Shown here: positions 12,954 through 31,510 of the stretch, piece by piece
How the letters are laid out: each line of letters begins with the position of its first letter
Numbering within the stretch: the first letter of the stretch is position 1
Origin: a virus
Reading direction: 5' to 3' (one strand)
DNA length: 33,142 bases
Virus record (IMG/VR): IMGVR_UViG_3300027712_000084
Location: 1 to 33,142 of that record
Notes under the pieces: generated by a model
Told to the model about the DNA's origin: nothing
The model's database searches: none
What the model saw: the letters and a program-made list of their open reading frames with translations, nothing else
Position numbers and translations under genes: made by a program

Positions 12954-12983
12954 ACTAAATATCAGGAATGAGGAGTTCCTGAT
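12954..12983 (+). promoter_or_regulatory. late promoter overlapping an SD-clamping inverted repeat
   Basis: ACTAAATA (12954-12961) resembles the T4 late motif. It abuts a perfect 8-bp inverted repeat, ATCAGGAA (12961-12968) and TTCCTGAT (12976-12983), whose 7-base loop TGAGGAG carries the Shine-Dalgarno. The ATG is at 12984. In T4 late promoters transcription starts about six bases after the motif, here about 12967. A late transcript would therefore lack most of the left arm, while read-through RNA could form the full hairpin. Confidence 0.6.
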
Positions 12984-13394
12984 ATGTCTTATGAAAATCC
13001 GTGGTTATATGAAAATAAAATATTTGAATCAGATGATATTGACAACTACATTGGGTTTGTATATCTTATAACCAACTTAACTGATAATAAAAAATACATT
13101 GGTAAAAAATTATTCGGTACGACAAAAGTTCGTCAAGTGAATAAAAAGAAAAAGAGATATAAAGTAGAATCAAATTGGAAAGATTATTACGGTTCGTCAG
13201 AAAATCTCTTGACAGATGTAGATAAATACGGTAAGTTAAATTTTAAGCGTCAGATAATTCGCTTATGTAAAACCAAAGGCGAATGTTCTTATTTCGAAGC
13301 TAAAGAACAATTTGCTGTTGACGCTGTAATCGATCCATGCTACTATAATTCTTGGATATCGGTTAGAGTAAGAAGAAATCACTTGAAGATTTAA
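12984..13394 (+). CDS. GIY-YIG nuclease-family protein
   Basis: Product of 136 residues. The GIY-YIG core begins at about residue 22: IGFVYLITNLTDNKKYIGKK, where GFVY replaces GIY and KYIG gives the YIG block; a Lys-rich insertion (VNKKKKRYKVES) and YYGSS follow. It has no DNA-binding domain typical of free-standing homing enzymes such as T4 Seg proteins, so it may be a domesticated single-domain nuclease. It is controlled by a late promoter with a hairpin over its RBS and ends one base before tRNA-Leu. Confidence 0.7.
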   Translation: MSYENPWLYENKIFESDDIDNYIGFVYLITNLTDNKKYIGKKLFGTTKVRQVNKKKKRYKVESNWKDYYGSSENLLTDVDKYGKLNFKRQIIRLCKTKGECSYFEAKEQFAVDAVIDPCYYNSWISVRVRRNHLKI

Positions 13395-19516: not shown

Positions 19517-19546
19517 CTATTAACAACAGTAAGTGAGGTTTTTACC

Positions 19547-19915
19547 ATGAAATATTTTACGATTTTGATTGTATCAATCTTGCTTACTGCTTGTCAAACC
19601 ACTAATTCTTATGCTATAAATAAGAATACCACTTTAAACAGTGGTATCGTTGCCTCTTGGTATTCTACTGGTAAGTGGACTGCTTCTGGACAACGATTCG
19701 ATCCCAACGGGCTTACTGTCGCACATAGAACCCTACCGTTTGGGACAAAACTTAAACTGACCAATCCTAATAATGGAAGGTCCATAATTGCTACGGTTAA
19801 CGATAGGGGTCCCTTTATAAAAGGCACTGGGTTAGATGTTTCTAGAGGTGGTGCTCATGAACTTGGCTTTATCAAGCAAGGTAAAACGAGACTGATTATG
19901 CAAGTTATGAGGTAA
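19547..19915 (+). CDS. RlpA-like double-psi beta-barrel lipoprotein
   Basis: Product of 122 residues from the ATG at 19547, after GTGAGG; a longer frame starting inside the tRNA is rejected. The signal peptide ends in a lipobox (SILLTAC, C16). The mature protein is a single DPBB domain: GIVASWYSTGKWTASGQRFDPNGLTVAHRTLPFGTKLKLTN, then IIATVNDRGPF and LDVSRGGAHELGF. RlpA proteins bind or cleave denuded septal peptidoglycan. It has no SPOR domain, so it is a short form. Located directly before an exported CHAP-type hydrolase, it may help cell-wall breakdown. Confidence 0.85.
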   Translation: MKYFTILIVSILLTACQTTNSYAINKNTTLNSGIVASWYSTGKWTASGQRFDPNGLTVAHRTLPFGTKLKLTNPNNGRSIIATVNDRGPFIKGTGLDVSRGGAHELGFIKQGKTRLIMQVMR

Positions 19916-19958
19916 AATATATTACTCTGTCCGTAGCAATATAGAAAAGGAAAGAGTA

Positions 19959-20594
19959 ATGAAAAAACTTATATTTTTGCTAACAGTGATGTTAGTTAGC
20001 TTTAGTTTCGTAAATGTTTCTGAGGCTAGACCAAAACATAAGAACTATCATTATAGTACAGTATATAAGCATAAGCATAAAAAAGTGAGGCATGTAAAGA
20101 GAGTTGTACCCGTACAACAAGTTCAGCAGCCAAATTCAAATGATGAAATAAGTACATCTATGTATTGGATAAATGAAAAGGCTAGAATGGCCCAAGTCCA
20201 ACACGTAGTTGTTGATATGTCGAGAAAGTCATTTCTTTCTGTAGAAAATACATTTATCTATAGTGGTGATTTGGCAAAAAAAGCTTCTCGTTATATTGGC
20301 GCAAATGCCAGTCAATTAGGATTACCTTCGAGACTTTGGTGCGCTGATTTTATGAATATGATCGCAGGTGGCCATGACCGTCGAGCGATTTCATATGTTC
20401 ATCGTGGTAAACCCGCTACGTATGGTTGTACAAATTGTGTAGCTGTAACTAATCGTAGGGGTGGTGGTCATGTTGGTGTGGTGACAGGCTACGATGGAAG
20501 AGGGAACCCAATTATTCTTTCTGGTAATCATAATAGAAGAGTTGGGGTTGGCGTATATGCAAAACAAAGAGTTATTGCATATCGTTATATCTAA
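19959..20594 (+). CDS. exported CHAP/NlpC-type peptidoglycan hydrolase
   Basis: Product of 211 residues. A Sec signal peptide (KKLIFLLTVMLVSFSFVNVSEA) is followed by a basic His/Lys-rich linker, then a cysteine-peptidase domain of the TIGR02594-like type: ASRYIGANASQLGLPSRLWCADFMNM with the probable nucleophile C128, GGGHVGVVTGYDGRGNPIILSGNHNRRVGVGVY with H171 and N190. RBS GGAAAG. A signal-bearing endolysin would reach the periplasm through Sec and might not need a holin for export. It forms a unit with the RlpA-like lipoprotein and is closed by a terminator. Alternative role: virion-independent cell-wall remodelling. Confidence 0.8.
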   Translation: MKKLIFLLTVMLVSFSFVNVSEARPKHKNYHYSTVYKHKHKKVRHVKRVVPVQQVQQPNSNDEISTSMYWINEKARMAQVQHVVVDMSRKSFLSVENTFIYSGDLAKKASRYIGANASQLGLPSRLWCADFMNMIAGGHDRRAISYVHRGKPATYGCTNCVAVTNRRGGGHVGVVTGYDGRGNPIILSGNHNRRVGVGVYAKQRVIAYRYI

Positions 20595-20597
20595 ATT

Positions 20598-20627
20598 AAT
20601 GGGTGGGGGTAATTCCTCGCCCATTTT
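20598..20627 (+). terminator. probable rho-independent terminator
   Basis: Stem AATGGGTG (20598-20605) pairs with CGCCCATT (20618-20625) with one G-U pair, followed by a short T run. It lies four bases after the hydrolase stop. Confidence 0.65.
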
Positions 20628-20643
20628 AACATAGGAGTCATGA

Positions 20644-20805
20644 ATGATCGAAAAACTTGATATGTGTAAGATTCAAAATACTTGGTTAGTTGATATCATG
20701 AATCGTATTCAACAAACCGCAGCAAGTTCAAAATATTCTGATGAAGAAAAGATTGTTGCAATTATTTGGTTGACAAAACAAGCAATTAAGGCAGAAGAAG
20801 ATTGA
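20644..20805 (+). CDS. 53-residue hypothetical protein
   Basis: A short frame with AGGAG upstream (the ATG at 20640 gives only six codons and is out of frame). The sequence IEKLDMCKIQNTWLVDIMNRIQQTAASSKYSDEEKIVAIIWLTKQAI is helical and amphipathic. Its stop overlaps the start of the next small gene by one base. No family is recognised. Confidence 0.5.
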   Translation: MIEKLDMCKIQNTWLVDIMNRIQQTAASSKYSDEEKIVAIIWLTKQAIKAEED

Positions 20806-20966
20806 TGAAAAAATTTTGGTCATTGTGGGCAAAAGCTCTTGGTGATAAAGGTGTGAAGGACGATGATAAAGACTCTGATATTATTGCTATTATCAGGACT
20901 GTCATCGTCCTTTGTTATATTGGCACTAACATTTTCATCGTGGCTGGAGTCATCCGACATTGGTGA
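20805..20966 (+). CDS. 53-residue single-span membrane protein
   Basis: A short frame starting on the previous stop (TGATG). Charged N-terminal part (KDDDKDSD), then one strongly hydrophobic segment (IIAIIRTVIVLCYIGTNIFIVAGVI). The pattern 'FWSLWAKALG.KG...D.D..AIIR..IVL......NIFI' resembles small conserved membrane proteins in T4-like phages. Role unknown. A late promoter follows three bases after its stop. Confidence 0.6.
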   Translation: MKKFWSLWAKALGDKGVKDDDKDSDIIAIIRTVIVLCYIGTNIFIVAGVIRHW

Positions 20967-20968
20967 TA

Positions 20969-21000
20969 TATAAATAATTCTAAGTACAGGAGCTTAGAAT
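20969..21000 (+). promoter_or_regulatory. late promoter overlapping an SD-clamping inverted repeat
   Basis: An exact T4 late consensus TATAAATA (20969-20976) runs directly into a perfect 8-bp inverted repeat, ATTCTAAG (20977-20984) and CTTAGAAT (20993-21000). The loop TACAGGAG holds the Shine-Dalgarno, and the right arm includes the first two bases of the ATG at 20999. The expected late start near 20982 removes most of the left arm, so only read-through RNA can fold the full clamp. The layout matches that at 12954-12983. Confidence 0.65.
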
Positions 21001-21718
21001 GATAACTTTTAAAGAATATCTAACTGAAATTAAAATTGGATTAGAATATCATACAGAACTCAATCCCAAACTATGGGATGGTGATAAACTTCGCCCAAAT
21101 GTTAGAGCGGCTCTTTTGAAGTTCATCGACGCATGGCGTGAATATGCAAATATTCCAAATAATTTAGTTCAAGATATAATCATGATTGGTGGTAATTGCA
21201 ATTACAACTATACGTCCAAATCAGATATTGATGTTCATTTGATCGTTGATAGATCGAAGCTAGGAACTGATAGGAAGCTCGTGGACGATTACCTTCAGGA
21301 TAAGAAGGTATTGTGGACACTAACACACAAGATTACCGTCCTTGGGTATCCTGTAGAGCCTTATGCCCAAGACCCTGTTGGATCATATCCCAAGGGGCAA
21401 GGTATTTTTTCGTTGAAGAAAAATACATGGGTCCAGAAACCAGTTCATGGTGAATACGATTTCAAAAATGATAAAAATCTCAAATTAAAAGTGCAAGATT
21501 ATATGCATACGATTGATCGTATGATCAAAGATAAAATGGACATGGATCAATTTAATAATCTAAAAGACAAAATCAAAACCATGCGTGGTGCTGCTATTCA
21601 AAAGGGCGGTGAATTTTCATTAGAAAATCTTGTCTTCAAAGAACTTCGTAATCGTGGATATCTAGATAAAATGAGTAAATATGAAAAAACTTTGCAGGAC
21701 AAATCACTTTCTCTTTAA
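20999..21718 (+). CDS. nucleotidyltransferase-fold protein with capsid-targeting-like N-terminus
   Basis: Product of 239 residues. A Pol-beta-type nucleotidyltransferase signature is present: IGGNCNYNYTSKSDIDVHLIVD with the GG turn (64-65) and metal-binding D76 and D78. The first ten residues, MITFKEYLTE, fit the T4 capsid-targeting sequence pattern (MKTYQEFIAE), which directs internal proteins into the prohead and is cleaved after the Glu by the prohead protease. With a perfect late promoter, this suggests a packaged enzyme delivered with the DNA. Substrate is unknown; the targeting claim is inference. Its end overlaps the convergent metallopeptidase gene by 15 bases. Confidence 0.75.
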   Translation: MITFKEYLTEIKIGLEYHTELNPKLWDGDKLRPNVRAALLKFIDAWREYANIPNNLVQDIIMIGGNCNYNYTSKSDIDVHLIVDRSKLGTDRKLVDDYLQDKKVLWTLTHKITVLGYPVEPYAQDPVGSYPKGQGIFSLKKNTWVQKPVHGEYDFKNDKNLKLKVQDYMHTIDRMIKDKMDMDQFNNLKDKIKTMRGAAIQKGGEFSLENLVFKELRNRGYLDKMSKYEKTLQDKSLSL

Positions 21719-22630: not shown

Positions 22631-22902
22631 TGTTTATTCGTGATGAAATTTTAAAAGAGTTGACAGATTCTGTCATTGAGGTTACATTCCTCAAGAAGGA
22701 TGGTATTACTCCTCCACCTCTTCGGTGTACTTTGATGCCAAGGATTTTACCTCCTGCATTCAATGATGAAGATCGTAAGCAAATGCAAGATTTTCATAAT
22801 CGTGAGCCTAGTCTTGTAGCCTCATGGAATGTTCAAAGAAACAGTTGGTGTGTATTTCCAATTGACATGGTTGAGTATATTCAGGCTCAAGATAACTACT
22901 AA
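22630..22902 (+). CDS. small SH3-barrel-like (WYL_2 type) phage protein
   Basis: Product of 90 residues from the ATG at 22630, overlapping the glutaredoxin stop by one base. The pattern EVTFLKKDGITPPPLRCTLMPRILPP...SWNVQRNSWCVFPIDMVEYIQ follows the small SH3-like family common in T4-like phages ('TF.KkDG..r...cTl.p..lp', then 'vwd...n.wr.f..d.v'). Role unknown. Confidence 0.7.
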   Translation: MFIRDEILKELTDSVIEVTFLKKDGITPPPLRCTLMPRILPPAFNDEDRKQMQDFHNREPSLVASWNVQRNSWCVFPIDMVEYIQAQDNY

Positions 22903-22905
22903 ATA
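22898..22905 (+). promoter_or_regulatory. late-like promoter motif before AdoMetDC
   Basis: ACTAAATA, 37 bases upstream of the ATG at 22943. It begins inside the last codons of the preceding gene. The leader carries AGGAG and no strong hairpin. Confidence 0.45.
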
Positions 22906-22942: not shown

Positions 22943-23308
22943 ATGGCATATTGGGGGTTTCATCTCGTATTAGATTGCGCTGATCTAAATTCATTTTCAA
23001 TTGATGATTATGATACGATTTATAATTTTACAAAGCAGCTTGTTAATGATATTGACATGGTTGCATACGGCGACCCACAAATCGTTAGCTTTGGTTCCGG
23101 CAATAAAGCTGGATATACTTTAGTACAGTTGATTGAAACTTCAAACATTTGTGCTCATTTTGTTCCTGATGATCTAAAAGGCGGAAATGCTTTGTATCTT
23201 GATGTGTTCTCATGTAAGTCTTTTGACTCTGATATTGTTATCGGTCTTGTCAAGAAGTATTTTGACGCAAAGACTGTTCGCCCAACTTTCCTTACTCGAC
23301 AGGCTTAA
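22943..23308 (+). CDS. speD: S-adenosylmethionine decarboxylase proenzyme
   Basis: Product of 121 residues. It makes decarboxylated SAM, the aminopropyl donor for spermidine. The prokaryotic class 1b core is recognisable: GFHLVLDCADLN at the start, then LIETSNICAHF, where S67 is the likely pyruvoyl-forming serine, H72 lies five residues later as in the Thermotoga enzyme (S63/H68), and C91 in LDVFSCK matches the catalytic cysteine. An ATG five bases upstream at 22938 is nearer the RBS but opens only an 11-codon out-of-frame reading. No spermidine synthase is visible in this window. Confidence 0.82.
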   Translation: MAYWGFHLVLDCADLNSFSIDDYDTIYNFTKQLVNDIDMVAYGDPQIVSFGSGNKAGYTLVQLIETSNICAHFVPDDLKGGNALYLDVFSCKSFDSDIVIGLVKKYFDAKTVRPTFLTRQA

Positions 23309-31154: not shown

Positions 31155-31183
31155 AAAATAATGTCAAAGATAACAAATAATCC

Positions 31184-31214
31184 TTGACTATTTTACTGAT
31201 AATCTATATAAATA
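31184..31214 (+). promoter_or_regulatory. dual sigma70-type and late-type promoter for tmRNA
   Basis: TTGACT (31184-31189), 17-base spacer, TATAAA (31207-31212); the same -10 region is also an exact T4 late consensus TATAAATA (31207-31214). This would allow tmRNA synthesis early and late. Predicted start is about 31219-31220. Confidence 0.6.
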
Positions 31215-31218
31215 AAGT

Positions 31219-31510
31219 TGCTAAGGTTGTTGAGACGTAAAGAATAGGTCAGTAAGACTGGGGGGCAGTACCCCACGCCTCCACCATATGTGCTAGAGAT
31301 AGTTCACTCTACAGTCTGTGAAGTCAGACCACATATGATGGGGGCGAAATAGGCTCGATTATTGATAGTAAAGGTACGAGTAGACCAAAGCTAAATCTAA
31401 ATGCAAACGATAACTTTGCACAGGACTTCGCTCTAGCAGCGTAAGCACCTTGGGTATGGGTTCCACCTAGAAACAGAACGGGCCTATTAACACACAGTGC
31501 AATAATGCAC
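31219..31510 (+). ncRNA. ssrA: circularly permuted two-piece tmRNA
   Basis: The 3' acceptor half comes first: T-arm TGGGG-GGCAGTA-CCCCA, then CGCCTCC, A and an encoded CCA (31259-31286). A 53-base intervening segment (31287-31339) follows, then the 5' half starting GGGGGCG (31340-31346) with a TAGGCTCGAT D-loop-like segment. GGGGGCG pairs with CGCCTCC over seven base pairs, with G-U as the third pair, the alanine identity element. The tag frame begins at 31403. AATAGGTC (31243-31250) pairs with GGCCTATT (31481-31488), tying the two pieces together. Removal of the intervening segment gives the two-piece molecule known from alphaproteobacteria. It rescues stalled ribosomes together with SmpB, presumably from the host. 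End positions are estimates. Confidence 0.9.
31403..31444 (+). other. tmRNA proteolysis-tag reading frame
   Basis: Resume codon GCA at 31403 encodes ANDNFAQDFALAA followed by TAA (31442-31444). With the alanine from the charged acceptor this gives AANDNFAQDFALAA, very close to the Caulobacter tag AANDNFAEEFAVAA and ending in the ALAA degron recognised by ClpXP. Confidence 0.92.

Follow-up and report, generated by a model that had tools for sequence, protein, structure and literature searches.

The locus studied here raises the question of what the short spacer between a phage late promoter and the start codon of a gene of the function-unknown family phrog_36119 does. It lies in a 33,142-base virus fragment (the window, i.e. 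the whole stretch of DNA analysed) of a T4-like phage, whose gene content includes a gp61-type primase, the small subunit of a class Ia ribonucleotide reductase and a T4-type RNA ligase/tail-fibre attachment protein. At this place an earlier note had described an exact late promoter, an 8-bp inverted repeat, a loop carrying AGGAG and a right arm running into the start codon, and direct reading of the sequence confirms all four elements (copy 2 in table 1). The 8-bp arms are perfectly complementary and the AGGAG lies 6 nt from the ATG. Copy 1, reported in the same note at 12961-12983, is also real; its extent is slightly larger than was thought, the device occupying 12954-12985. We interpret copy 2 as a cis-acting timing switch, composed of a late promoter and a hairpin that hides the ribosome-binding site, with a probability of about 0.82.

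Table 1. Positions of the features discussed in the text, counted from the first base of the window.
Feature	Position	Strand	Sequence	Remarks
Copy 1, late promoter	12954-12961	+	ACTAAATA	
Copy 1, 10-bp arms	12959-12968 and 12976-12985	+		loop TGAGGAG; ATG at 12984
SegE-like GIY-YIG endonuclease gene (PF19835)	12984-13394	+		gene under copy 1
Genes resembling a cell-wall/lysis cassette	19541-20966	+		just before the putative nucleotidyltransferase gene
Small ORF (phrog_1679)	20805-20966	+		hydrophobic stretch; ends 2 bases before the copy 2 promoter
Weak terminator-like match, 5 bp	20895-20911			inside the upstream gene
Copy 2, T4-type late promoter (-13 to -6 box)	20969-20976	+	TATAAATA	exact consensus; position rule from PMC2988020
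Copy 2, left arm	20977-20984	+	ATTCTAAG	directly adjoins the promoter box
Copy 2, loop	20985-20992	+	TACAGGAG	Shine-Dalgarno AGGAG at 20988-20992
Copy 2, right arm	20993-21000	+	CTTAGAAT	takes in the AT of the ATG at 20999-21001
Putative nucleotidyltransferase gene (phrog_36119)	20999-21718	+		239 aa; gene under copy 2
Late promoter without clamp	22898-22905		ACTAAATA	
S-adenosylmethionine-decarboxylase-like gene	22943-23308	+		
Permuted tmRNA	31180-31488	+		

Transcripts reading in from the upstream genes would carry both arms, and the resulting hairpin would occlude the AGGAG and the AUG and make translation poor. The late sigma factor gp55 would initiate at TATAAATA. The T4 late box occupies positions -13 to -6 (PMC2988020), and with this spacing the late +1 of copy 2 is predicted at about 20982, inside the left arm. 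The late RNA would thus lose five of the eight left-arm bases, AAG alone remaining, so that the hairpin could not form and the ribosome site would be open. The nucleotidyltransferase would in this way be made late only. The start site, the read-through RNA and the translational effect proposed here are modelled on T4.

The two predicted RNAs differ markedly in folding calculations. Opening the region from the Shine-Dalgarno (SD) sequence to the AUG costs 9.0 kcal/mol in the read-through RNA of copy 2 and 1.9 kcal/mol in its predicted late RNA, a value that depends on the start (2.6 kcal/mol if 1 nt earlier, 5.1 kcal/mol if 2 nt earlier). The corresponding costs for copy 1 are 14.1 and 4.3 kcal/mol. 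Comparing the cost of opening the ribosome site in the long and the late RNA gives a score of 7.05 kcal/mol for copy 2 and 9.75 kcal/mol for copy 1. The T4 genes soc, segB, 49 and I-TevI score 4.2, 9.3, 11.2 and 11.9 kcal/mol, respectively, e scores 12-14 kcal/mol and I-TevII 14.5 kcal/mol; simple as it is, the score recovers the known T4 cases. A gene start was considered clamped when the difference was at least 5 kcal/mol and leaders were considered redundant at 85 per cent similarity, both thresholds being chosen in this analysis.

Homologues of gp55 are present in all seven long relatives searched. A phage-borne tmRNA in the window is permuted and of alphaproteobacterial type (RF01849, 112 bits; RF04321, 98 bits; ARAGORN tag ANDNFAQDFALAA), and points to an alphaproteobacterial host. 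The phage group bears gp55 and probably has alphaproteobacterial hosts. A DNA search for near-identity among isolate phages gave no match. A permuted tmRNA is reportedly mentioned in a paper on a marine methylophage (PMC9004378).

The ORFs 5' of copy 2 are co-directional with it, and the region of the phrog_1679 small ORF is a possible source of read-through. No strong terminator-like site was detected between the upstream genes and the copy 2 promoter. The single weak match, within the upstream gene, and the terminator-like hairpins that several homologues have right before the late promoter of the gene could be taken to mean that the copy 2 stem is itself a transcription terminator, or an RNase processing hairpin, of the upstream gene. 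This is highly improbable, as the stem contains only two G-C among its eight perfect pairs, is followed directly by GATAACTTTT rather than by a U tract, is not called as a terminator on the + strand and sits downstream of the promoter box. The upstream genes code for an RlpA/DPBB lytic transglycosylase-like protein, a TIGR02594-like protein and the phrog_1679 product, and by their similarities look like a cell-wall/lysis cassette. In the Caulobacter phage Cr30, the nucleotidyltransferase homologue comes after a gene annotated 'lytic enzyme'. The S-adenosylmethionine-decarboxylase-like gene of the window is preceded by a late promoter without a clamp.

The product of the gene under copy 2 carries a motif, GGN-N-NYT--SDxDxH, that is invariant in 19 aligned homologues. 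Its AlphaFold model (pLDDT 85) gives weak fold matches to AadA, CdnD/CdnE and MNT, with Z of about 5-6.5 only. The Pfam search yielded no match and domain searches revealed no nuclease domain. Judging from the motif and the model, it is probably a nucleotidyltransferase of the polymerase-beta type.

One alternative to a timing switch is fortuitous self-complementarity of an AT-rich spacer that lies between a genuine late promoter and a genuine ribosome-binding site. Taken singly, copy 2 is only moderately improbable (p 0.003-0.016): shuffling the spacer 20,000 times yields 8-bp arms in 67 cases, and when the upstream bases are shuffled along with it, 94 of 6,000 trials reach the clamp energy (p about 0.016). 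Six late-promoter gene starts were examined in the window. The strict pattern (a promoter adjoined by an inverted repeat with arms of 7 bp or more around an SD, and a start codon nearby), for which the earlier note had proposed a search, is found exactly twice on the two strands of the window, as copies 1 and 2, and never in 60 Markov shuffles. The related contigs (230 loci, 2.58 Mb) contain 12 distinct hairpins of this kind, including the two of the window, and three shuffled copies of these contigs contain none. All strict matches in the relatives other than copies 1 and 2 precede SegE-like genes, with one exception (L173), which precedes a different putative GIY-YIG gene.

The SegE-like genes provide the most regular picture. 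Of the SegE-like gene starts that have a late promoter, 18 are non-redundant, and 17 of these are clamped, with arms that differ from one another. When the upstream halves were exchanged between homologues, the mean difference fell from 9.7 to 3.1 kcal/mol. Such chimeras were preferred to a comparison of cognate and swapped arm pairing, which would be circular, the arms having been defined by pairing. The late box varies as well: ACTAAATA, AATAAATA and CATAAATA are interchangeable at the same place, and the ACTAAATA of copy 1 matches the late consensus of the Aeh1 type (a/gC at -13/-12; PMC2988020). A third clamp geometry was observed 5' of the SegE-like genes of L306, L330, L320 and L350, where a long stem is formed between the TATAAATA box itself and the region of the start codon (TATTTATG), and no clear SD is present. 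In L227 and L229, gene starts on opposite strands are clamped; late promoter boxes lie within the stems on either strand (AAATAAATAT...ATATTTATA), and the two starts may share one palindromic intergenic stem.

The leaders of the nucleotidyltransferase homologues are more diverse. The list was checked by hand. Among non-redundant homologues, a clear SD is combined with a late promoter (at about -26 to -32) in the window virus, L312, L002, L172, L216 (with its near relative L189) and L177; L008 and L034, whose ORFs do not begin at the true start, were left out, and the list replaces a count of 5/7 obtained by single linkage. In L312, where counterparts of copy 1 and copy 2 are found within 3 kb of DNA, the protein is 60 per cent identical, the arms are kept (ATTCTAGG/CTTAGAAT, with one G-U pair), the loop is changed and the score is reached in one of 1000 shuffles. 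The hairpins of L002, L172 and L189 (0, 34 and 37 of 1000 shuffles, respectively) are unrelated to those of the window and span the promoter: the left arm is located in the promoter box or 5' of it, and the right arm overlies the SD, which falls in or beside the stem. The hairpin of L216 is no better than those of shuffled sequences (533/1000), and that of L177 is weak and unremarkable. L031, L353 and L040 carry, instead of a clamp, a terminator-like hairpin immediately 5' of the late promoter; by its position this hairpin would be another route to blocking read-through. Most of the remaining homologues have neither a late promoter at a recognizable distance with an SD nor a clamp, and their start often overlaps the upstream gene; tight control of this gene is thus not universal. 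It appears from these leaders that, where a private late promoter is present, some insulation from upstream transcription is usual.

The retention of the arms in L312 despite the changed loop, the alternative clamps of L002, L172 and L189 at the same gene, and the complete lack of strict matches in shuffled sequences make an accidental origin of copy 2 unlikely. The further instances and the conserved arms on which the earlier note had staked its interpretation were both found, the latter in one relative (L312).

A palindrome that touches a promoter might also be an operator, bound by a protein as DNA and not folded as RNA. There are precedents in T4, where intron endonucleases autorepress at late promoters and I-TevI binds an operator that overlaps the late promoter of its gene (PMC2988022). 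Such an operator is very unlikely here. In the homologues complementarity is kept, but the arm sequences differ and the hairpin sits at other positions with respect to the promoter, changes that would not be compatible with a sequence-specific operator; the SD and the AUG lie within or next to the arms; and the product of the gene under copy 2 shows no nuclease domain in the domain searches.

The timing switch is not a general trait of late promoters. In arbitrary viral contigs that had not been picked for hairpins, 11 of 115 TATAAATA-SD-ATG sites are clamped (9.6%, against 7.1% of chimeras). This absence of enrichment, which could be cited in favour of chance, led us to reject a general late-promoter regulon. 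Among the relatives, if the SegE-like family is set aside, 29 of 150 gene starts with a late promoter are clamped, compared with 28 of 500 control starts (p 1.5e-6); when the nucleotidyltransferase family is excluded as well, the proportions are 16.8 per cent and 5.4 per cent for chimeras (p 7e-5), a modest excess in which several genes again look like endonucleases and the related virus sequences are not independent. The relatives and the chimeras bear out the view that the architecture, and not the sequence, is conserved. The word 'regulon-like', also used in the earlier note, is too strong, since arbitrary contigs show no enrichment and the strict cases, copy 2 excepted, lie almost solely at GIY-YIG endonuclease genes. 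The device is tied to particular genes, and 'regulon' is the wrong word for it.

It is tempting, if still tentative, to suppose that in this T4-like group the nucleotidyltransferase gene, beside its cell-wall-lysis-like neighbours, has gained insulation from read-through several times independently: by a leader-stem clamp in the window virus and L312, by promoter-spanning hairpins in L002, L172 and L189, and by terminators in L031, L353 and L040. If so, this would suggest that early expression harms the phage and that the product, like T4 lysozyme, is a late enzyme whose timing is critical. The recurrence of unrelated clamps and terminators at one gene indicates that its early expression may be costly, and makes the gene worth assaying.

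Our interpretation is built on the sequence itself, the difference in folding, the recurrence of the device in relatives and the presence of gp55 in related phages; the comparison with relatives is the strongest of the new evidence. Copy 2 is real and looks functional, and it belongs to a known kind of device, which has been studied experimentally for T4 e and I-TevI and is also listed for soc, 49, segB and Aeh1 mobE (PMC3014915, PMC2988022). The mechanism itself is already established in T4; what is new is its target, a gene that does not code for an endonuclease, and the phage group. This classic T4 device of translational timing is thereby extended to an uncultivated phage group, where it reaches a non-endonuclease gene of unknown function and nearly all of the late-promoter-driven SegE-like genes found.

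Copy 2 has two features of the T4 class: a gp55-type late promoter directly upstream and a hairpin, in the predicted read-through RNA, that sequesters the SD and the AUG. It resembles T4 gene e (lysozyme), in which a late promoter lies beside the left arm and the SD and AUG are occluded in long transcripts only; loss of the arm is predicted for the late RNA of copy 2 too (PMC3014915). However, gene e is a different gene with other arms; it has two late promoters, and its 5' ends have been mapped, whereas the start in copy 2 is predicted. The hairpins of T4 I-TevI, I-TevII and segB and of Aeh1 mobE follow the same logic and are directly comparable to copy 1, with its SegE-like GIY-YIG gene; unlike them, the gene under copy 2 is not an endonuclease gene. 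T4 soc and 49 are also late genes that do not code for homing endonucleases, and their ribosome-binding site is sequestered in early RNA; the gene, the arms and the phage group all differ from those of copy 2.
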